This document shows positions 3,175-39,104 of a DNA stretch of 64,000 nt, one piece after another. Each line of letters starts with the position of its first letter. Positions within the stretch are counted from its first letter, which is position 1. Origin of the DNA: Aigarchaeota archaeon (GTDB taxonomy: Archaea; Thermoproteota; Nitrososphaeria_A; Caldarchaeales; Wolframiiraptoraceae). The DNA is taken from NCBI GenBank assembly GCA_025059205.1, contig JANXDS010000004.1, positions 1-64,000 on the forward strand. The letters are read 5' to 3'. Under the pieces are notes generated by a model. It was given only the letters and a program-made list of their open reading frames with translations, was not told where the DNA came from and did no database searches. A program made the position numbers and the translations under genes.

Positions 3175-4413
3175 CTATGCCAGGGTCGCGATGCCCTTGC
3201 AGAGTAGTAAGACGGCCAAATAAGCCGGTAGCTTTACGTTCTCGTTATCGTAAGGTCCGTACCATTCATCACATATGCGCGTTTTTGGCATGTATATTAC
3301 ATGCACTTTACATGGCTCGTCGGACATCACGACAGCATCAACGAACGGGTTGAACTGGTCTAAAGCGTCGATTTCAAGTCTCTTTGCTAAAAAACCAGTC
3401 TTTCCGTTTAACGTGTTGGCAAGTCTTATAAGTCGATGTATGTCTGTTGTGACGATCGTGTCTATCATGCTTCTCGCCTCTTCTACAGCTAATGTTGTAA
3501 TAGCTTTTATAACGCTGGGCTTTAAAACTTCCCATTTAGGAGATTCTAACCACAACGTCAACAACGAATCCTTAATTTGCAACAAATCACTGTATTCTTT
3601 ATTTCCGATCAATCTTATCATCCTTTCGGCGATACGCGGTTTGTGAAGGTCTTTGATCACTTCAAAAGCCGCTTTCGCCAACCTACCTCTCCATGAACCG
3701 TCCGTATACTCAAGCGTAGTGGAATAGTGGCGCCTCCTATCGATGGGTAATCCATAAAGCGTAGGGTCGAGCCCGTTCCCCAGGATGTAGTCAGTAATCT
3801 CCTTTCTCGACACTTGGTCGAGTGTAAAAAGTTTCTCGTCGTTTACTATTATGTGGAAACCTCTATTTCCCGAAAAATTCACCGAAATCTTCGAGTATGG
3901 AATACCAAAATCCATCTCAAGGAAATCTAAAAGTTTACGGTTTTCTTCCTTTGCCGCCTCTATGCAGTTCTCACAAACCCAGTCAACACGTCTAACTTTT
4001 GTGCTGCCGCAATTGTTGCATTGCTCGGCCTCAGGTGATAACTTGACCCTGCAATCTTCACATATTGAAAAGTCATGCCTTTCTTTGCACGGAAGGTTTA
4101 GATGGTCGGCATCTATATCGAATATGAGTTCCGCACCTAACCATACCTTTTCCTCCATGGGGGCCTGAGGATGCTGATAATGGGCAGCCGAATGATATAT
4201 ATGCAAAGGTGTTACCTTCTTTATTAATTCAAACAGTTCATGTGGGCTTTTTAACGATATGTGCCTTACCATGATCTTCTGCCCAAAGGCGAAGTATCCA
4301 AACTCCCTCCTTTCGATCATGCGAGGTACGTGCACACTTTCTGCATCTTTTCTATAATACTCGTTAAACAGGGCGTGGACGTATTCAGCATCTTTGTTTG
4401 TTAGAAAACTCAG
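3175..4413 (-). CDS. priS: DNA primase small (catalytic) subunit PriS, apparent CTG start
   Basis: This is the AEP-superfamily primase that makes the initiating oligonucleotide. The catalytic ELIFDIDADH motif, the SGNRGFHI motif and a zinc-binding insert (CKERH, CEDC, CNNCG, CENC) are all present. The first in-frame ATG/GTG/TTG is GTG at 4335, but the reading frame continues upstream to about 4416 and encodes the expected N-terminal helix (KDAEYVHALFNEYYRKDAE). No canonical start exists between the upstream in-frame TGA and 4335. A CTG at 4413-4411 lies six bases after GGTGA (4424-4420) and overlaps the stop of a small membrane-peptide gene. That start gives 412 residues. The family call is certain; the start codon is inference. 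Confidence 0.93.
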   Translation of the reverse strand: MSFLTNKDAEYVHALFNEYYRKDAESVHVPRMIERREFGYFAFGQKIMVRHISLKSPHELFELIKKVTPLHIYHSAAHYQHPQAPMEEKVWLGAELIFDIDADHLNLPCKERHDFSICEDCRVKLSPEAEQCNNCGSTKVRRVDWVCENCIEAAKEENRKLLDFLEMDFGIPYSKISVNFSGNRGFHIIVNDEKLFTLDQVSRKEITDYILGNGLDPTLYGLPIDRRRHYSTTLEYTDGSWRGRLAKAAFEVIKDLHKPRIAERMIRLIGNKEYSDLLQIKDSLLTLWLESPKWEVLKPSVIKAITTLAVEEARSMIDTIVTTDIHRLIRLANTLNGKTGFLAKRLEIDALDQFNPFVDAVVMSDEPCKVHVIYMPKTRICDEWYGPYDNENVKLPAYLAVLLLCKGIATLA

Positions 4414-19472: not shown

Positions 19473-20018
19473 TTAACTTTTACCGGAGCTTTTTTCTAAC
19501 AGCCCCTCTATGTATTTTCTTATTTCTTGGGGATTATTCTTGATGTTAAAATAGTCTGCAAAAAGTTGGGTAGTCCTTAGCAGGAGTGTTCTGCCGGATT
19601 TTTCGGCCTCAACTAACCCTTTCTCAATTAACTGTTTAACATGTTTGTAGGCTTCCTTTCCTCTGGCTGCCGCCAGAACCGCCTGGCTTACAGGCTGATG
19701 GTATGCAATGAATGATAAAGTTTTGAGCAAAGCTGTGCTCAAAAGCGGCTTCTTCACGTACCTCCTAACTATTTCCGAGTACTCTGGCGCTAGGCATAGA
19801 AAATACCGCTCACCCTCTAGTTTTTTAATCCTAAACGGATGATTGGATTTTTCGTATTCAGTAGAGATGTCGTTTATAATCTCCCTTATGGTGCTTTTTG
19901 ACGTTGTGCCTACAGCATTCATGAGTTTTTGTAACTCAACCGGCTTATCGGAAGCATAGAGCAGCGACTCAATAACCGCTTTCATCCATGCCTTTCTTTT
20001 TTCATCCATGTATCCCAC
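19473..20018 (-). CDS. scpB: Segregation and condensation protein ScpB
   Basis: This 181-residue protein has two tandem winged helices (about 8-85 and 90-165), with the ScpB features AVIESLLYASDKPVELQKL and LKTLSFIAYHQPVSQAVL. ScpB dimers bind the kleisin ScpA and regulate the SMC ring during chromosome segregation. The GTG at 20018 overlaps scpA; an ATG three codons later (20009) is equally plausible. The order smc-scpA-scpB, all overlapping, indicates one operon. Confidence 0.92.
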   Translation of the reverse strand: MGYMDEKRKAWMKAVIESLLYASDKPVELQKLMNAVGTTSKSTIREIINDISTEYEKSNHPFRIKKLEGERYFLCLAPEYSEIVRRYVKKPLLSTALLKTLSFIAYHQPVSQAVLAAARGKEAYKHVKQLIEKGLVEAEKSGRTLLLRTTQLFADYFNIKNNPQEIRKYIEGLLEKSSGKS

Positions 20019-20652
20019 CCATGGATATCAAGATCTTCCCATTATCGTCTTCGATGATCGTAATCATACCTCTTGACGCAATAAACAGGAGTAGTATAAA
20101 ACGTCTCACTGCCTCTAGCCTATTAACTCCACTCATAATCTCATCTAACGTTATGATCCCTTTAATTTCCAGAACCTCTTTTATAAAATTGTAGAACTCC
20201 TCCAACTTCTCCTCGATTTTTATTATAAAGTCTTCGATGTTTAGTTGTTGTTCGTCATCGTTGTTTTGCTTGCGTTGCGGTGGTGATTCAGAGAGAACGT
20301 GCTTTAGAGCACTAATCAGCTCCATTATAGTGGTCGTCACGAATTCGCCCTTCAACGGTGGAAATATTGGAGGCGGTATGAAGTATTCTTGCTTTTGTTT
20401 TACGACAGGCACTTCGTCAGAAGCAAGTAGCCTCTCCGTTTTTATCCTATGCAGTGTTGCTGCGGAGTATACGGCTATTCCTGAAGAAGTAAAATCAAAC
20501 GTTTCCCTTCTTTTTAGGACCGAGGCCAAAGAACTTAGCAGCTCTCTTAAGTTAATTTCCCAAACTCTTAATTTATCCCAGTTTGTAATGTCGAATAGTA
20601 CACGCCAGGGTGACCTGATCCATTGAATCTTTTCACCTTCTACCTCAGCCAG
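20002..20652 (-). CDS. scpA: Kleisin subunit ScpA, no canonical start codon
   Basis: ScpA is the kleisin that closes the SMC ring. The first in-frame ATG/GTG/TTG is TTG at 20529, but the frame is open to 20682 and encodes the conserved N-terminal SMC-head-binding helices (WIRSPWRVLFDITNWDKLRVWEINLREL in two adjacent parts), so the true start is upstream. CTG at 20652-20650 is preceded by GGAGGG (20666-20661) with an eight-base gap and overlaps the smc stop. ATT at 20628 after AAGGTGA is another option. From CTG the protein has 216 residues and ends in the kleisin winged helix (GIITLDEIMSG, AVRRFILLLFIA). Confidence 0.9.
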   Translation of the reverse strand: MAEVEGEKIQWIRSPWRVLFDITNWDKLRVWEINLRELLSSLASVLKRRETFDFTSSGIAVYSAATLHRIKTERLLASDEVPVVKQKQEYFIPPPIFPPLKGEFVTTTIMELISALKHVLSESPPQRKQNNDDEQQLNIEDFIIKIEEKLEEFYNFIKEVLEIKGIITLDEIMSGVNRLEAVRRFILLLFIASRGMITIIEDDNGKILISMGGIHG

Positions 20653-23600
20653 CTTCGACTCCCTCCAACTTCGTCCTAATTATTCTGGACTCGCCCCTCT
20701 CCATGTAAACACCAATAAGTTGGTCAGCTTTTTCGGCCAGCACATCTTTAAGACTTACGATGATTATCTGCGTCTTCTTAGACATCTCCTTCAGCAATTC
20801 GGCCAACGCAACGGTGTAGGCCACGTCCATATGGGCGTCTATCTCGTCGAAAATGTAGAAGTCGGCAGGTGTGAGGCCTTGGAGTGCCATAAGGAGCGAG
20901 ACGGCTGCAACGGACCTCTCCCCTCCACTAACGCTCCTCAAAGAACGTTGAGGTTTCCCAGGGAACTGCACCACGACTTCAACTCCCGATTCGCTTGGTT
21001 TTGTCTCGTCAACAAGCCTGAGCCAGGCCACACCGTTCGTAAGCCTGTTAAAGTATGCCGCAAACTTTTCGGAAACTTTTTCCATCGTTGTAAAGAAAGC
21101 TTTTAGCTTCTCCCCTTCGACCATCTTTATAAAGTTGATTATCTCTTGCCTTTCCAGCTCTAATTCGCTTATTCTAACTGACCTGAGTTTGTAGTTTCCA
21201 ATCAAAGCCTCGTATTGCTCCGAAGCCAATTGGTTCACAAAAGACAGCTCTTCCCTTTCACCCTCTAAGGCTGTAAGTATTTGCTCTCTAAGTGCAGGCT
21301 CGAATGCTAATAACTCCGTCGCATCTACGTTACCCAACTCGGACAGTTTTCCCATTATCATTTGAAGCTGGGATTCTATCTTCACACTTTCAAGCTTAGC
21401 TTCTTGTTGCTCCGACCATAAGGCCTTTAACCTTTCAGATATCTCGCCTTCTTCTTCGGCTTGCGTTGATATCGATTGTCTTATTTCGTCCCTAATCTTA
21501 ATTAACTCTTTATGTCTCGCCGATAGGTTTTCAATTTCTTGGTCAAGTTTATGAAGTTCCGTCTCCAGCAAAGTTAACCTAGATTCAAGCTCAACCCTCA
21601 GCTTTTTCTCCTCCCCTAGCTTTAGTTTGCTGGCCTCTAGCGAGCGGTTAAGCGATTCGACTTCGGACCTATACCGATTTATCAGATTTAGGATTTTTCT
21701 TTTTGTTTCCTCTAAACTTTTAAGATTCGTTGACTTCTCGGCTAGCTGCACTTTTAATTCCGTATACTTCGATTCAAGGAATTTTAAATTCGATGAAGCT
21801 GACTCGAAATCTTTTTCCATATTTAGTCTTTGTTCCTCTCCGATCGACTCGATGCTGTCAACCTCGGATAAACTCTTTTTAACGCGCTCTTCTTCTTTTG
21901 TAAGGGCCTCTATCCGTTCGTTTATTTTCTTCTCCTTAACCATCAATTGCGAAATGGACCCCTCCAACAATTTGCGCTCAGCGTTGAGCGATTTGATGTC
22001 TGCATTCATAGAAGAAAGCTTCGCTTGATACCTTTGGATTTCACTTCTAATCGATTCTGCCTTTTTTGCGAGCTCATCACGTCTTAATCTCAATTCGTTC
22101 AGCTTAAGTTTTACAACTCCCATATGAGATTCTAGATTTTCCAACTCAGCATGCAGCATGCTTAGCTTGCCTCTCTTATCCCCGAGAACCTTAACAAAAC
22201 CGCCAGGATAGCAAACTATTTTCCTGTCTACAACAACCAGTTTGCCGTTCTTCGTCTTTTCACGCACTCCCTCAAAATTGTTAGCAAATTCTACATTATT
22301 CTTAATCCATGTCTGAAATTTTTCTAAACTATCGCGACCAGTTTCGTCTAATTTGTCGTTTAATGTCAAAAGCCTACATTCAAAATCCAGAGATGCAAAA
22401 GTTTCGGATAACAATCGAGTTACAGCATAGTTGTCTGTTACGATGGCATTTTTCCAATCGTTAAGAACTACGTCAAGCTTTTCAGTATGTTCTGGTAATG
22501 ATTTGAGGAAGCCACCTAACGTTCCCGCAACCCCGTCGACAAATTTGCTGGCCAATAACCCGACAAAATCTTCAAACTTCTTCGTCTCTTCATCTTCAGG
22601 CTGAGTTGTCAATCGTATCCTTAGCTCTGTTATAATGCCTTCAGTCTTCTTGATAACCTCGTCTGCATAAGTCAACATGCCGGAGTAACGTTCGATCAAA
22701 AAATCGTGCTTGCTCAACTCTTGGTTAAGCTTCGTTACCTCATCTTCTGTCATGCGCACTTCGGAAAGAAAATCTTCAAACCTTTCGTCAATCTCAGCGA
22801 TTTTGTTCCTAATAGTCAGGATCTCTTCGCGTACGTCCTCCTTCTCCTTCGTTAATTGCTCCTTGCTGTTTCTGATATTCTCAAGCTTTAAGTGTGCTTC
22901 GGATCGTGCCCTTTCACTCTTAATCTTTGAGAACTTGACCTCTTCTAACTTCTTCTCAAGCTCTTTTACGGTGCTTCTTAACCTCTCAACCTCATCGGAC
23001 ATCCTTGCAACCTCTTCTTCCAATCGTTTTTTATCCTTTGAACATTCGGCAATCTTTAACTCAAGATCGTTAAGCTCCTGCTCGGAAGCCGACGTCGCCG
23101 ATTCAAGCTCGGCAATCTTTTGCTGTATATGCGCAGACTCTTTCTCCAAAATTCCTACACGATTCTCGGAATCTCTTATATCAAGTCTTAACTTTACGAT
23201 CTTCTCAAACGTTTCCTGTCGAGCTTTTACGATCTCTGACATATTTCGCTCTATTTCAGATATTTCGTTTTCTGTTGCTTGTAGGTTAAACTTGAGCTTC
23301 ATAAGCTTCGCGGATACTTCCTGTTTTGCACCCTCTAATGCGTGGATCTGTTCCGTTATGCTAGCGATTTTTGATTGCACCGTTTTAAGAGCTTCGGAGA
23401 TTTTCTCCATCTCTAGTCTGTACTGAAGAGTTCTGAGTTTGGCGATTTCTGCCTCTACAGCCCTCCTCCTAAGATACTGGTTCCTTTCTTTCTCAAGTTG
23501 TTTAACCCTTGTTCTAACCTCGGCCGTGCTGGCTTTAGCAACCTCTAGGTTCTTGTCAGCCTGCGCAAGCTGCTCTTCGGCCTCAGCTTTTTTCCTATCG

Positions 23601-24109
23601 TACTCTGCTATGCCTGCAACTTCTTCTATCAACTTACGCATATCGTCTGGACTCATTTCGGCTAAATTCAATATAGCACCTTGTGGTAGTATGTTAAATC
23701 CTGAAGGTCTTATGTTAGCGGCCGAAAGCAGTGTGAGCAACTCTCCTCTTGATGCTAACTTTCCGTTTATGTAATACTCGCTCTCACCGTTCTGATATAT
23801 CTTCCTACTGATCGTAACCTCATCCGTTTCTATCGGCAGTGCTTTTTCTGAGTTGTCCAAAGTTATTGATACTTTAGCGTATGCTGCTTTTCCTTTGCTC
23901 CCTTCGTGAACTAACTCGGAAAGTCTGCCTACCCTTAAAGCATGCGGACTAAGTTCACCCGTTACAAACCTGATAGCATCGAGTATGTTGGACTTACCGC
24001 CACCGTTCGGACCGGTAATTACGACCAGACCCTTAATTAGCTCGACTGCAGTCTTTCTTTGACCAAAGGACTTAAACGCATGGAGCGATAGCTTTTTAAT
24101 GTAAACCAT
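20645..24109 (-). CDS. smc: Chromosome segregation protein SMC
   Basis: The 1154-residue ATPase has an N-terminal head with Walker A GPNGGGKSN, long heptad-rich coiled-coil arms, a hinge at about 490-650 (LASKFVDGVAGTLGGFLKSL onward) and a C-terminal head with the signature VSGGERSVAAVSLL and Walker B FYIFDEIDAHMD. It compacts and segregates chromosomes with ScpA and ScpB, encoded immediately downstream. ATG at 24109 directly precedes the conserved head. A TATA-like element (GTATAATAAAAAAG, minus strand) lies near 24140. Confidence 0.97.
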   Translation of the reverse strand: MVYIKKLSLHAFKSFGQRKTAVELIKGLVVITGPNGGGKSNILDAIRFVTGELSPHALRVGRLSELVHEGSKGKAAYAKVSITLDNSEKALPIETDEVTISRKIYQNGESEYYINGKLASRGELLTLLSAANIRPSGFNILPQGAILNLAEMSPDDMRKLIEEVAGIAEYDRKKAEAEEQLAQADKNLEVAKASTAEVRTRVKQLEKERNQYLRRRAVEAEIAKLRTLQYRLEMEKISEALKTVQSKIASITEQIHALEGAKQEVSAKLMKLKFNLQATENEISEIERNMSEIVKARQETFEKIVKLRLDIRDSENRVGILEKESAHIQQKIAELESATSASEQELNDLELKIAECSKDKKRLEEEVARMSDEVERLRSTVKELEKKLEEVKFSKIKSERARSEAHLKLENIRNSKEQLTKEKEDVREEILTIRNKIAEIDERFEDFLSEVRMTEDEVTKLNQELSKHDFLIERYSGMLTYADEVIKKTEGIITELRIRLTTQPEDEETKKFEDFVGLLASKFVDGVAGTLGGFLKSLPEHTEKLDVVLNDWKNAIVTDNYAVTRLLSETFASLDFECRLLTLNDKLDETGRDSLEKFQTWIKNNVEFANNFEGVREKTKNGKLVVVDRKIVCYPGGFVKVLGDKRGKLSMLHAELENLESHMGVVKLKLNELRLRRDELAKKAESIRSEIQRYQAKLSSMNADIKSLNAERKLLEGSISQLMVKEKKINERIEALTKEEERVKKSLSEVDSIESIGEEQRLNMEKDFESASSNLKFLESKYTELKVQLAEKSTNLKSLEETKRKILNLINRYRSEVESLNRSLEASKLKLGEEKKLRVELESRLTLLETELHKLDQEIENLSARHKELIKIRDEIRQSISTQAEEEGEISERLKALWSEQQEAKLESVKIESQLQMIMGKLSELGNVDATELLAFEPALREQILTALEGEREELSFVNQLASEQYEALIGNYKLRSVRISELELERQEIINFIKMVEGEKLKAFFTTMEKVSEKFAAYFNRLTNGVAWLRLVDETKPSESGVEVVVQFPGKPQRSLRSVSGGERSVAAVSLLMALQGLTPADFYIFDEIDAHMDVAYTVALAELLKEMSKKTQIIIVSLKDVLAEKADQLIGVYMERGESRIIRTKLEGVEAG
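20661..20666 (-). promoter_or_regulatory. Shine-Dalgarno supporting a CTG start of scpA
   Basis: GGAGGG on the minus strand, inside the last codons of smc, ends eight bases before CTG at 20652. This is normal spacing for coupled translation, and no canonical start codon lies in frame behind it for more than 100 bases. Confidence 0.5.
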
Positions 24110-29198: not shown

Positions 29199-30425
29199 TT
29201 ATTCGGCCCTAAGCGCTTGGACAGGGTCTAGCCTTGCAGCCCTTAAAGCCGGATATATGCCCGAGGCAAGACCAACGACGACAGCGAACAAAAAACTGTT
29301 GACCAGTACGCTTGGTGTTATGCTTGGCTGGTATAATACCGGATTACCGCTAGTTCCGATTAGGAACGAAGAAAACATCCCTCCGAGTGACATAGCTAAC
29401 AGGCTTCCTAAAACTACGCCAAGCAAACCTCCTATTATTCCTATTAGCGTTGACTCTGTTAAGAAAATCTTTGCAACATCCTTTTGAGAAAAGCCCAGGG
29501 CTCTAAGGACTCCTATCTCCTTGGTCCTTTCCATAATAGTCATAAACATTGTGTTCATTATACCTATACCAGCAACGACTAACGCTATGCTGGACACCAC
29601 CAAGAGGAAAACCGTGAAGTTGTTGAGTATTATTCTAACCTGCTTTACTATCGTTAAAGGACTAATAAGGTCGGCATCTTTTCCATAAATCTTGTTCAAT
29701 GCTTCGATTATAGAATCAATGGCGTCCGTGGATTCAGCTATCACCACTATGCTCGGGTAACTTGTAGATTTGAAAATGCTGCGTGCTTGCGGTATCGTTA
29801 TCATGATGCTTTTATCGACATCGAGGTATGGAGTCGAACCAAATTTCTTGTATATTGCTCCGACGATGTAAGACCTCGTGACACGCTGTCCTTCAACCAT
29901 AAGCTCTAGCGTTACCGAGCTATACAGAGGTATGCTTCTACCTACCTCCCCAGGCGGGAACGCCACATCGTATCCTATGGCTATTATTGCCACATCGTTC
30001 GGCGAAAGTTCTTCGCCTTGGTATATCTCCAAATCAGGCAATACTTGATAGGTCAACGTCGGATCCAGGCCTATTATGGAGACCGTTTGCTCGAAGCCAC
30101 CGCCTATGAGCTTACCTCGAGAGAGATAGAACGGACTGACAGCCTTCACTCCTGGTAAGTTTGCCAGGAGCATAACGTCGGTATCCGTTAACTTTAGCGT
30201 CTCCCTCGGGCCGACTTGAGCGGACACCGTTCCAGAAGGTGTTACAAATATGTTGTTGACACCTATCTTCGATAGAACGTTGTCTATTAAGACGTTTAGC
30301 CCCTCGGTGTTCGATATGAGGGATATGATTAGCGCAGTCCCTATCATTATACCTACAATAGTCAGAACAGTTCTTACCTTACGCGTCCTTAGGCCGCCGA
30401 ACGCGTACCAGATTGTATCAACGAT
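29199..30425 (-). CDS. MacB/FtsX-type ABC transporter permease, start codon unclear
   Basis: The protein has four membrane helices, one near the N-terminus and three after residue 250, and a large extracellular MacB core domain between them, as in FtsX/MacB permeases. The first canonical start (ATA-ATG at 30347) would cut the first helix; the frame continues upstream through DTIWYAFGGLRTRKVRTVLTIVGIMIG, the standard N-terminus of this family. No in-frame ATG, GTG or TTG precedes it, so ATC at 30425 or ACG at 30431 (eight bases after AGGGGG) may start translation. The gene overlaps the exported-protein gene by about 37 bases. Confidence 0.85.
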   Translation of the reverse strand: MVDTIWYAFGGLRTRKVRTVLTIVGIMIGTALIISLISNTEGLNVLIDNVLSKIGVNNIFVTPSGTVSAQVGPRETLKLTDTDVMLLANLPGVKAVSPFYLSRGKLIGGGFEQTVSIIGLDPTLTYQVLPDLEIYQGEELSPNDVAIIAIGYDVAFPPGEVGRSIPLYSSVTLELMVEGQRVTRSYIVGAIYKKFGSTPYLDVDKSIMITIPQARSIFKSTSYPSIVVIAESTDAIDSIIEALNKIYGKDADLISPLTIVKQVRIILNNFTVFLLVVSSIALVVAGIGIMNTMFMTIMERTKEIGVLRALGFSQKDVAKIFLTESTLIGIIGGLLGVVLGSLLAMSLGGMFSSFLIGTSGNPVLYQPSITPSVLVNSFLFAVVVGLASGIYPALRAARLDPVQALRAE

Positions 30426-32407
30426 TCTCGTCTCTTTCGCCCCCTTACCCTTATTACTGATACAATAGAAACAACAACGACCAAAGCGACTATAATGGTG
30501 GCTGCATACCAGGTAAACATGTCAGGCAAGTTATTGCTTGTATTCTCTTGTGACTGCGGCCAGCCACCCATGATGGTCACGTTATATACAAATGTCTTCG
30601 AGAAGTTGTTCCTTAGCGTATCCTTGTACTCAACTACGATTTTCACGGGTACGATACCGGGTGTGAGGTTCCCTACAACAACTATCGGTAGATTAAACAT
30701 CAGCGGAGCGTTGGGGCTTACATCCCCGAGGTAAGTGGGCCTGACTGGGCGTATAACATCGTTACCATCAGCCAAAAAGATCCTCGTAAACAATGCAGGT
30801 TCATTCCCTTCGTTCAACAACCTTCCAACGATGTATGGTTGTTTATTTACGAGCTCAAAGTTAAGATCCTGGATTTTCAAGTCTATTATACCTCTAACAT
30901 AGTATCCCAGCTTGTAACTTTCTGTTTTTGTTGCGCCCTGCCAATCTACGTACTCAACGTTCACATTTATGTAAGTCGAGTATCCAACTGTAGACAATTT
31001 TTCAAAAGTCTGCTCTGAAACGAAGGCTAAGACGTTAAGCGCAACTTCCTCGTCTGGACGTATTTCTCTGAAATATTCCCTGGCCCCCTCCAGGAGAGTT
31101 AACCAGCTAGTTGTGGATTCCAGCGTTACAGATACATCCTTAAGGGTGTACGGTTTTAAGTTTTTTACGAGTATTTCCACGTTATTTATAGAACCAGACA
31201 TCAAATAAGCTTTTGATGTAATTTTGAATGCTTTAGAAAGCGGCTGGTCCGCAACCCTAACACCTATCGTTCTGATCACCTCGTATGGGTTATTGTAAAC
31301 ATCACGGTAGGATAGCTTCAACGAAAGCAAGAAAGACTTGCCAGATGCTAGCTGGCTGGCGAACAGTTCAAAATCTAACGGATACTCTTCTCCAGGTTTC
31401 AGCTCGTTTAAGCTCCACCTACCAGGTTTTCCAACAAACGTAAGGAATGCCGGTACACTCTGCGGAAGCATTAATTCAGCTTCTACAGAGTATGCAGGTT
31501 CCATCCCCTCATTCCTAATGAGTATCCTAGCTTGATTTATTTCTGTAGGCGATAGCAGATCATTGTCGAGTGTCACCTCAATCCTTATCCTCTCACTTAC
31601 TTGCGTACCTATGCGGAACATGACATTATAGTAAAGCCTCTTTTGCTGTCCGTAAGAGTCCAAATACGTAATGTCCACAGGGATGCGTAAGGCTCTGTTT
31701 GCAACGGGACTTTCTATCTGTAGTAGTATAGGCAACACAACCTCGGTATTGGGTTGGATTCTGCTAAATTGCCAAGAACGTTTCGTATCGATCATCGTCA
31801 CACCGGGTATGTCAGGGTCTCCTAACGAAATCATTACATTATACATGTATGCAGTACCATCGTTAGATACCGTGATCTTAGCTTCGTTCAACATTCCTGG
31901 TGTCAAAGAGGCCTGCCCTGCCTTGACTAAAGCTAGACTCTTCCCAGTAATTCTTATGTCAAAATAAACGTACGATGAGGAGCTAACAAGATCATTCTCT
32001 TCCTCATCATAATAACTGTAGTGCACGACCGCATACGCTTTGTAAAGACCAGGTTTTAAATCTTCGTGTATGTCGAGAAGATAGCGGAGTATAAAGGACC
32101 GTCCGCTTGGTACAGGGTCGACATAAGCAACTTCACGTGTAATCCTGGACTTCGTTAACGAATCTTCAAACCCTTCTGGAAGAACGAGATAACCCCTTAC
32201 ACCTATGATCTGTTCCTTCCTTGCGTTAACCATCTGCAAAATCAATGGTACGTTCTTATCACCCGCATCGACCTCGATTTTGTTGCCTATGTCGCCCCAA
32301 AATGCCTCTACAGGTACTATATTTTCTGAGTTTACGCCTATCAAACTTGTAAGCGTGAATACAAATGCTACTAAGAGTACTATCAAAAAGATTCTATGCT
32401 CCCTCAT
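30389..32407 (-). CDS. Large exported membrane-anchored protein with repeated beta domains (COG1361-like)
   Basis: The 672-residue protein has an N-terminal signal peptide (IFLIVLLVAFVFTLTSLIGV), several NEW3/CARDB-like beta-sandwich repeats with the recurring pattern of asparagine-glycine-proline turns (NEGNEPALF, NDGTAYMYNV, NEGMEPAYSV), and a C-terminal membrane helix (WYAATIIVALVVVVSIVSVI) followed by a basic tail. It resembles archaeal S-layer-like COG1361 proteins that accompany MacB transporters. The gene lies between the ABC ATPase and permease and overlaps both, so it is probably a periplasmic-side subunit acting like an adaptor. Confidence 0.75.
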   Translation of the reverse strand: MREHRIFLIVLLVAFVFTLTSLIGVNSENIVPVEAFWGDIGNKIEVDAGDKNVPLILQMVNARKEQIIGVRGYLVLPEGFEDSLTKSRITREVAYVDPVPSGRSFILRYLLDIHEDLKPGLYKAYAVVHYSYYDEEENDLVSSSSYVYFDIRITGKSLALVKAGQASLTPGMLNEAKITVSNDGTAYMYNVMISLGDPDIPGVTMIDTKRSWQFSRIQPNTEVVLPILLQIESPVANRALRIPVDITYLDSYGQQKRLYYNVMFRIGTQVSERIRIEVTLDNDLLSPTEINQARILIRNEGMEPAYSVEAELMLPQSVPAFLTFVGKPGRWSLNELKPGEEYPLDFELFASQLASGKSFLLSLKLSYRDVYNNPYEVIRTIGVRVADQPLSKAFKITSKAYLMSGSINNVEILVKNLKPYTLKDVSVTLESTTSWLTLLEGAREYFREIRPDEEVALNVLAFVSEQTFEKLSTVGYSTYINVNVEYVDWQGATKTESYKLGYYVRGIIDLKIQDLNFELVNKQPYIVGRLLNEGNEPALFTRIFLADGNDVIRPVRPTYLGDVSPNAPLMFNLPIVVVGNLTPGIVPVKIVVEYKDTLRNNFSKTFVYNVTIMGGWPQSQENTSNNLPDMFTWYAATIIVALVVVVSIVSVIRVRGRKRRESLIQSGTRSAA

Positions 32408-37320: not shown

Positions 37321-37336
37321 TAATTTTTTTGTTTTT
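37321..37336 (+). terminator. T-rich terminator after ftsZ
   Basis: A run of seven T followed after one G by five T lies 20-35 bases after the ftsZ stop, in the 33-base spacer before the convergent metG. Such oligo-T tracts end archaeal transcripts without a hairpin. Confidence 0.5.
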
Positions 37337-38987
37337 ATGCCAAACTAAGCTTTGACATATATTTCGATATCTCCTCGTCAGTTACTTTTCTGAACAACGG
37401 CTCTGGTTTGTTGATTTTGTGTTGTGGTTTAATGGGCACGCTGAGCTCTTCCCATCTTACGGTCTCCGGCGTTAAGTTCAGGTTAATCATGCTCATGAGT
37501 TTATGTGCTGAAAAAGGTAAGTAGGGTGACATAAGAACACAGAGTGCCTTAACTACTTGCATCGCCACATACATTGCCCTAGCTGCGTTCTCCGTTATAG
37601 CCCACGGCTTCATAGTGTTCAGATACCTATTACCCAACTGGGCCAGCTCCAATATGATCTTTAGACCCGATTTAAAACGACAGTTTTCCAACCTGTTCTT
37701 AAACATGACGGTTAGCTTTTCTACATCATTTAGAAGCTCTCTATCCTGCGGCTCAAGCTCACCTGGTTCTGGTACTACACCTTCAAACTTAGTATGAACG
37801 AACAACAATACTCTATGAACAAAGTTACCGAGCGTTGCCACAAGCTCGTTGTTTATTTTTGCTTGGAAATCCTTCCACCTAAAATCAGAATCTTTCGTTT
37901 CAGGAGCTATTATCGCGGCGTAGTATCTAATCAAGTCTGGCTCGTAACTTTCAAGCATCTCATGAAGCCAAATGACCCAGCCTCTGCTCGTTGAGAGTTT
38001 TTGCCCCTCTAAGTTTACGAACTCGTTCACGACGACGTTATAAGGCAAGACGTAATCACCATGCGCTATAAGTATGGCTGGAAACAGGATCGTGTGAAAG
38101 AAAAGGTTGTCCTTTCCTATAAAACAGTAAAGCCTTGTTTCTGGGTCTAGCCAAAACTTCTTCCATGCATCTGGTTGCCCAACCTGTATGCTCCAGTCTT
38201 TGGTTGCAGATATGTAGCCTAGAAGATTTTCAACCCAATTATAGAGTACCTGTCCCTCTGCTCCGGGGAAGGGTGCAGGCGGTCCCCAATCGTAATCCCT
38301 CGTTATATCCTTGTCCTTTAACCCCTCGTTCTCTAACCAAGATGTTGTCTTATTATAGGTTGATTTTCTCCAAAACTTCTTCGGTTTTACGTACTCAAGC
38401 ACTTTTTGCGTCAAAGCCGACAGCTTCAGGAAGTAGTGGTCTTTCTCTATGATTATTGGTTTGTTGCCGCACAAAGTACAAACAGGGTCTATTAGTTCGT
38501 TCGCCTCGTACCAGCTTGCACACACCTCGCAGACTTCGCCATACTGGTCCGGTGCTCCGCAAATCGGACACGTACCCTTCACGAATCTATCAGGTAATAC
38601 TTTATCATCCTTCGGACAATACCATTGCTTTATTCTTTTTCTGTATATGTAACCCTTTTCCCACAGTCTAGTGTAAAACTCGTACACAGTATCGTAATGG
38701 ATTTTTTTGGACGTTCTGGAGAATATGTCGAAACTTATTCCAAGCTTAGCGAAAGTATCTCTCTGAATCGGATAGAACATATCGCACAGCTGTTGCGGTG
38801 TCATGCCCTTTTTCATGGCCTCCAGCACGATGCTGGATGCGTTTTCGTCTGTTCCACATACGAATAGAACTTCATGTCCAAGCATCCTCATGAATCGCGC
38901 AAATATGTCGGCCGGAAGATACGCTCCGCTAAGATGACCAAAGTGTCTCGGTGCGTAGGAATACGGTAAGGCAGCCGTTATCAGAAT
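37335..38987 (-). CDS. metG: Methionyl-tRNA synthetase, no canonical start codon
   Basis: This class I synthetase charges tRNA-Met. The HIGH motif appears as HFGHLSG, the KMSKS motif as KLSTSRG, and a four-strand zinc knuckle (CPKDD, CPICG, CEVCA, CTLCG) lies between them. The first in-frame ATG (38897) falls after the HIGH motif, yet the frame is open to 39014 and encodes ILITAALPYSYAPRHFGHL, which is essential to the fold. Between the upstream TAG and that ATG there is no ATG, GTG or TTG; ATT at 38987 or CTG at 38984 are the plausible starts, or an indel. The product is about 550 residues without the C-terminal EMAP-like domain. Confidence 0.93.
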   Translation of the reverse strand: MLITAALPYSYAPRHFGHLSGAYLPADIFARFMRMLGHEVLFVCGTDENASSIVLEAMKKGMTPQQLCDMFYPIQRDTFAKLGISFDIFSRTSKKIHYDTVYEFYTRLWEKGYIYRKRIKQWYCPKDDKVLPDRFVKGTCPICGAPDQYGEVCEVCASWYEANELIDPVCTLCGNKPIIIEKDHYFLKLSALTQKVLEYVKPKKFWRKSTYNKTTSWLENEGLKDKDITRDYDWGPPAPFPGAEGQVLYNWVENLLGYISATKDWSIQVGQPDAWKKFWLDPETRLYCFIGKDNLFFHTILFPAILIAHGDYVLPYNVVVNEFVNLEGQKLSTSRGWVIWLHEMLESYEPDLIRYYAAIIAPETKDSDFRWKDFQAKINNELVATLGNFVHRVLLFVHTKFEGVVPEPGELEPQDRELLNDVEKLTVMFKNRLENCRFKSGLKIILELAQLGNRYLNTMKPWAITENAARAMYVAMQVVKALCVLMSPYLPFSAHKLMSMINLNLTPETVRWEELSVPIKPQHKINKPEPLFRKVTDEEISKYMSKLSLA

Positions 38988-39104
38988 TCTTAGGGCTTGA
39001 CACCCTCCCGTTACATCCTAAAAAAGGTTTATTTAAACAAATCGTTAACTTAGCACTAACAAAAGCTATATTATCGGCAAGAAATCCTCTAATTTTAACA
39101 AAAC

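Follow-up and report, generated by a model that had tools for sequence, protein, structure and literature searches.

The window analysed here, a stretch of 64,000 nucleotides of an archaeal contig, carries on the minus strand the genes smc (20645-24109; Pfam SMC_N, E 2.8e-63), scpA (20002-20652) and scpB (19473-20009; Pfam SMC_ScpB, E 3.4e-39). For the kleisin gene scpA the question arises where translation begins. Its frame is limited upstream by the stop TAA 20682-20680 and is open thereafter, and up to the TTG at 20529 no ATG, GTG or TTG occurs in it. This TTG is therefore the first canonical in-frame codon (ORF 20002-20529), as a sequence-only reading of the region had stated. The same reading had placed the start at a CTG behind a Shine-Dalgarno (SD) sequence inside smc. 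The comparison with related genomes indicates that scpA is very probably translated from this CTG (20652).

Start site and N-terminus of ScpA

Read directly on the minus strand, GGAGGG (20666-20661) is followed by 8 nt and the CTG (20652-20650); the coordinates of the proposed layout, including the overlap with the smc stop, are correct. GC separates the CTG from the smc stop TGA (20647-20645), and start and stop overlap over 8 nt as CTGGCTGA. The SD core GGAGG(G), within the end of smc, lies in a register of 9 nt from the CTG and reaches a score of 14 in a simple pairing count devised for this analysis. The term perfect SD, used before, is a fair description for the GGAGG core. At the next junction the 8-nt layout is the same with ATG as the codon: the ATG of scpB (20009) overlaps the scpA stop as ATGGATGA (20009-20002), and all six Terraquivivens genomes compared have this ATG. 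Because of these two overlaps, smc, scpA and scpB are probably translationally coupled. As the frames of smc and scpA overlap by 8 nt, a fusion of Smc and ScpA by frameshifting was considered as well. Its probability is negligible, since in relatives the genes are separate and have ordinary ATG or GTG starts at this overlap, the SD has been kept, and the junction is designed like that of scpA and scpB.

The best named relatives of scpA belong to Candidatus Terraquivivens yellowstonensis, tengchongensis, tikiterensis and ruidianensis. The window genome (G000) is a further Candidatus Terraquivivens of the order Caldarchaeales, a name given as synonymous with Aigarchaeota in the passages available of PMC9246946. 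These archaea are uncultured and come from hot springs. Counted from the CTG, the protein has 216 aa. It misses the cut-off of Pfam PF02616 (17.8 vs. 24.6 bits, residues 125-200 only), and a search of the whole genome with this family gave no ScpA match above cut-off. With a profile built from 20 relatives, matches were obtained to ScpA chains of known structure; the N-domain is covered by 6ivh (E 8.2e-16), the C-domain by 4i99 chain C (E 2e-9) and 5xns (E 1.9e-6). As the Pfam match is below threshold, the name ScpA rests on these chains and on the gene order smc-scpA-scpB at the locus. This order and the 6ivh-like N-domain correspond to the archaeal Smc-ScpA(B) system, from which the locus differs in the scpA start codon only. 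Many archaea are argued to be without working ScpB in passages of PMC7055376, whereas here a clear ScpB adjoins ScpA.

Initiation at TTG 20529 would give a product beginning at residue 42. The N-terminal helical domain of ScpA is described as contacting the Smc neck in archaea and bacteria (PMC7055376, in part). The earlier claim that the short product would be deprived of the neck-binding part holds: residues 1-41 are lost, including W16, L19, D21, W31 and L35, which are invariant across the order and align with the N-terminal domain of archaeal ScpA in 6ivh. The TTG has in its favour that it is the first ATG, GTG or TTG in the frame, with the upstream conservation then being left over from the smc overlap. 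Such a start is extremely improbable. The overlap measures only 8 nt, while the 41 upstream residues are conserved as protein with 26, 14 and 62 differences at codon positions 1, 2 and 3, mostly at the third. Moreover, the six Terraquivivens genomes share no canonical scpA codon within 100 codons of the upstream limit. An AlphaFold model of ScpA (15-sequence alignment; mean pLDDT 48, approx. 28-36 over the N-terminal 40 residues) was uninformative on the neck-binding domain, because the pLDDT was too low.

The smc/scpA junction, whose comparison in relatives had been suggested as a check, was followed through the order. For this, 121 genomes were searched, 79 gave a match and the best 30 loci were compared. 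The codon forming the same 8-nt overlap was CTG in 11 loci, ATG in seven, GTG in three, TTG in two, ACG in one and another codon in six; hence 24/30 loci have NTG or ACG as the in-frame codon that lies 5 nt ahead of the smc stop. The overlaps ATGGCTGA, GTGGCTGA and CTGGCTGA, found in different genomes of one family, show one-base differences. Within the six Terraquivivens genomes the column holds CTG in five and TTG in one (CTG 4 and TTG 1 among the five other genomes). Since ATG, GTG, TTG, CTG and ACG interchange at an identical overlap with the smc stop, we regard the CTG as a drifted start codon and not as an internal leucine. A sequencing error near 20650, which the sequence-only reading had taken into account, is excluded because independent genomes share the start layout. 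Canonical orthologues at the identical overlap, the SD and the conservation of the protein up to the start together support the CTG as the scpA start.

Six of the 11 CTG loci have a nearby canonical codon that might serve as start: a TTG two codons upstream (L010, L011), an ATG three (L005) or six codons downstream (L019, L026), or GTG/ATG three to four codons downstream (L009). The other five (L001, L002, L003, L006, L012), with the window genome among them, have none nearby. A further candidate is AUU 20628 behind GAAGGTGAAAAG. All six Terraquivivens genomes have the ATT, and in four of them a second SD-like sequence, GGTGA, lies 7 nt before it (score 12-15). A start at this AUU is nevertheless very improbable, as the SD-like match is absent in two of the six, and the CTG column holds TTG in one genus mate and ATG or GTG in many relatives.

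Further genes without canonical start

The window was compared with the syntenic stretches of five genus mates, yielding 64 conserved ORFs. By rule, 52 of these have a canonical codon near the shared upstream limit; ORF 35409 was scored canonical by eye, seven were set aside and four are without. Dropped before the count of 57 were 132, 9162, 38929 and 41034 (short or ghost frames) as well as 51093, 56688 and 57905 (mixed or badly joined orthologues). Thus, four of the 57 resolved genes are without a shared canonical start, namely scpA, priS (CTG), an FtsX-like permease (ACG) and metG (CTA), and in each the beginning of the conserved protein offers no ATG, GTG or TTG. With their starts at CTG 20652, CTG 4413, ACG 30431 and CTA 38993, respectively, they are presumably the four cases among which the sequence-only reading had counted scpA.

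All four lie on the minus strand. The gene of the primase small subunit, priS (3175-4413), has its CTG at 4411-4413 with GCGGTGA upstream, the GG of which is 9 nt away. It starts CTG AGC TTC in all six Terraquivivens genomes, two codons past an in-frame TGA; in the other 24 of 30 loci, ATG or TTG occupies that position or an adjacent one. For the FtsX/MacB-like permease (29199-30431) the ACG (30429-30431) follows GGGGG by approx. 8 nt. The comparison of this gene covers the six Terraquivivens genomes, all of them with ACG and three with an in-frame stop just upstream; by inspection, the next ATG falls inside the first hydrophobic segment. The CTA of metG (methionyl-tRNA synthetase, 37335-38993) is found at 38991-38993, 10 nt after GGAGG.

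As control, the region round scpA in five genomes of another family of the phylum (f7) was treated by the same procedure. Among its 85 genes 75 were canonical by rule. Of the ten unsettled by rule, eight have canonical codons at the protein head and were accepted by eye, and two (38885, 64688) look like ghosts; no gene without canonical start was found among the remaining 83. Fisher's test, computed as 4/57 vs. 0/85, gave p 0.024 against a control that is weak and not like-for-like, because f7 seems to use fewer SDs. Other designs were rejected. Pairwise controls with two Caldarchaeum and two f7 genomes (5/88 and 1/107 flagged) were replaced by the five f7 genomes, because the paired genomes are too similar to separate coding sequence from leader. 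Clustering by the column with most canonical codons picked internal methionines, and of the 68 members (out of 419) flagged by a second clustering, many were judged on inspection to be antisense open frames.

The survey was widened to take in the remainder of one contig in three species (174-kb trio). Of the 179 ORFs there, 26 could not be settled by rule; six of these are genes named here, and the others were inspected in part. A nucleotidyltransferase beginning (start)-KAVILAGG has CTG in all six Terraquivivens genomes, in G005 directly behind an in-frame stop. In the other 18 of 24 loci the codon is ATG (10), TTG (5) or GTG (3). The tatC gene has ACG in five Terraquivivens genomes, in G003 directly behind an in-frame stop, and ATG in the sixth. 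Canonical orthologues of a non-canonical start were thus seen for scpA, priS, the nucleotidyltransferase and tatC. The starts of these four genes and of metG are preceded by SDs with scores of 12-19 at 8-10 nt, that of the FtsX-like permease by one with score 15 at 8 nt. An SD is no general feature of this genome: a score of 13 was reached by just 14 of 52 canonical starts. In the best reading of these sequences, SD-directed initiation at near-cognate codons would be tolerated across Caldarchaeales and used by several core genes, and the start codons of the order are seen as drifting among ATG, GTG, TTG, CTG and ACG at fixed places.

Start of metG and the initiator

The more striking case than scpA is metG. 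The enzyme type was found in 31 of 300 genomes of the phylum, and 30 loci were read. G000 has one metG of this type; its other two matches are weak. At the start position CTA was found in 15 loci, CTC in ten, CTG in two and ATG in three, the last being G051, G072 and G093 of an outgroup family (f12). Correspondence with these canonical loci is by place, not codon for codon. In Terraquivivens the frame reads GCC (or ACC) CTA AGG ATT CTG ATA ACG GCT, with CTA in all six genomes and a stop just before the frame in three. None of the 27 CTN loci has ATG, GTG, TTG, TTA or CTT at this place, and TTA/TTG and CTT account for 38% and 23% of the leucine codons of the window. The CTN falls no more than one residue from Met1 in 1rqg (query residue 2 aligns to residue 3), a solved methionyl-tRNA synthetase (MetRS) of the Pyrococcus type.

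The distance between CTN and SD is 7-11 nt in 26 of the 27 loci and 13 nt in G036. Between CTN and the conserved TAALPY, five to seven residues are found. As the residue count varies while the distance to the SD hardly does, the codon follows the SD and not the protein. In 11 of the 27 loci an upstream start is precluded by an in-frame stop that coincides with the SD or closely follows it, and three further loci have no canonical codon upstream within the open frame. A GTG start is possible in the remaining 13, where an upstream canonical codon is present that in most cases falls within the SD or adjoins it. In two genomes, G014 and G035, the CTN is closely followed by a TTG. The weak start codon of metG is conserved over long times, as in genes of the infC type, which suggests selection for CUN.

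Concerning the translation apparatus, the genome G000 has one initiator tRNA with the anticodon CAU, A1-U72 and a GGG/CCC anticodon stem, the hallmarks of initiator tRNAs, and five ordinary tRNA-Leu. A dedicated leucine initiator tRNA was not found among its 38 tRNA places, two partial ones left out. No 16S rRNA gene was found in G000, probably because it is missing from the assembly; two genus mates have one, with the 3' end GGATCACCTCC. The factor aIF1 is present in 41 of 41 genomes, and its absence as a cause of non-canonical starts was rejected. In Sulfolobus, aIF1 favours discrimination against such starts according to passages of PMC6237735 and PMC8211752. Since initiator tRNA, aIF1 and anti-SD look ordinary, nothing gross is missing.

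For scpA, the small subunit would be held by the GGAGG in the end of smc, either after termination of smc or by direct binding, and CUG would thereby be placed in the P site, approx. 9 nt from GGAGG. The ordinary initiator Met-tRNA (CAU) would read CUG with a mismatch at the first position, methionine most likely being inserted, and the initiation rate would presumably be lower than at a canonical codon.

The archaeal factor aIF2 should select initiator tRNA that is charged with methionine. This speaks against CUN starts being read by a leucyl-tRNA separate from the initiator, so that ScpA and above all MetRS would begin with leucine. Such a route is improbable also because G000 has no initiator-like tRNA-Leu and because CTG alternates with ATG, GTG or TTG in scpA, priS and the nucleotidyltransferase, as fits the initiator tRNA. 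It is favoured by the CTA, CTC or CTG kept in 27 of 30 metG loci, by CUA and CUC keeping only the middle-base match to the initiator anticodon and by the CUG initiation with leucine documented in mammalian cells (PMC524250, in part).

A further reading of metG can be put forward tentatively. It is possible, though rather doubtful, that MetRS of Caldarchaeales and of family f16 is started at CUN and is under selection to stay so. MetRS translation would then depend on the placement of the SD more than on codon pairing, and an elongator Leu-tRNA may possibly serve at this start. MetRS output could increase whenever charged initiator runs short, giving a feedback loop on initiator supply that resembles infC in its logic. 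If true, the metG case would link start-codon choice to the supply of initiator tRNA.

Relation to known systems and further observations

Interchange of AUG, GUG, UUG and CUG at orthologous starts was also described by Belinky et al. 2017 (PMC5622118). In 36 prokaryote genome triplets, 2 of 61,358 ancestral AUG starts had changed to CUG, a count limited by annotation rarely calling CUG. The passages available of that study name no ACG, whereas five genes of a single genus here have CTG or ACG at or close to fixation. Among bacteria, non-canonical starts are known for infC (AUU, autoregulated through IF3) and sigR (GUC), which are likewise conserved weak starts of chromosomal genes overlooked by automatic annotation (PMC5472188, in part). 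Both are individual, regulated genes of bacteria that possess IF3, while the habit described here extends over several unrelated core genes in an archaeal order. Furthermore, in contrast to infC and sigR, most starts here drift to and from canonical codons, and only metG looks held. Mammalian CUG initiation with leucine shares the use of CUG as start (PMC524250, in part); it is carried out by scanning ribosomes in Kozak context, whereas the ribosomes here would be placed by the SD.

The scpA CTG therefore belongs to a known kind, the non-canonical start. In the open-access literature consulted, we met no account of such starts being spread over the core genes of an archaeal order, of non-canonical starts in Aigarchaeota/Caldarchaeales, or of a MetRS started at CUN. 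Caldarchaeales genes with CTG or ACG starts are likely cut short or mis-started in annotation, because gene finders commonly accept ATG, GTG and TTG only. A lineage with CTG and ACG fixed in core genes opens archaeal start-codon choice to comparative study, beside aIF1, which is regarded as rejecting such codons. A proteomic test is made possible by Wolframiiraptor gerlachensis of the same family, described in passages of PMC9246946 as a stable enrichment culture with approx. 0.5-7% of the community.

Some minor observations were made on other genes. A Cbf5-like frame was rejected as a start-less gene: in L039:12410-13246 (G005:C8:92409-93245) and also in G001 and G002, a TruB/Cbf5-type frame begins mid-domain (WGHPAVSGVLP) and is preceded by a short stretch with TAGGAGGCTTTAA, which resembles the site of the archaeal cbf5 intron. 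This is probably an intron case with a separate first exon. The hisB gene (L038:3679-4266, corresponding to G005:C8:143678-144265) has ACG in T. tengchongensis only and ATG in G001 and G002. In a Caldarchaeum locus (L058), a TFB-like gene, named by inspection, has no canonical start before the zinc-ribbon motif; approx. 9-10 nt after GGAGGGTGA there is an ATA. SRP19, also named by inspection, has CTG in three of 22 loci (L055, L056, L075), all outside Terraquivivens in other members of the order, and ATG or TTG in 19.
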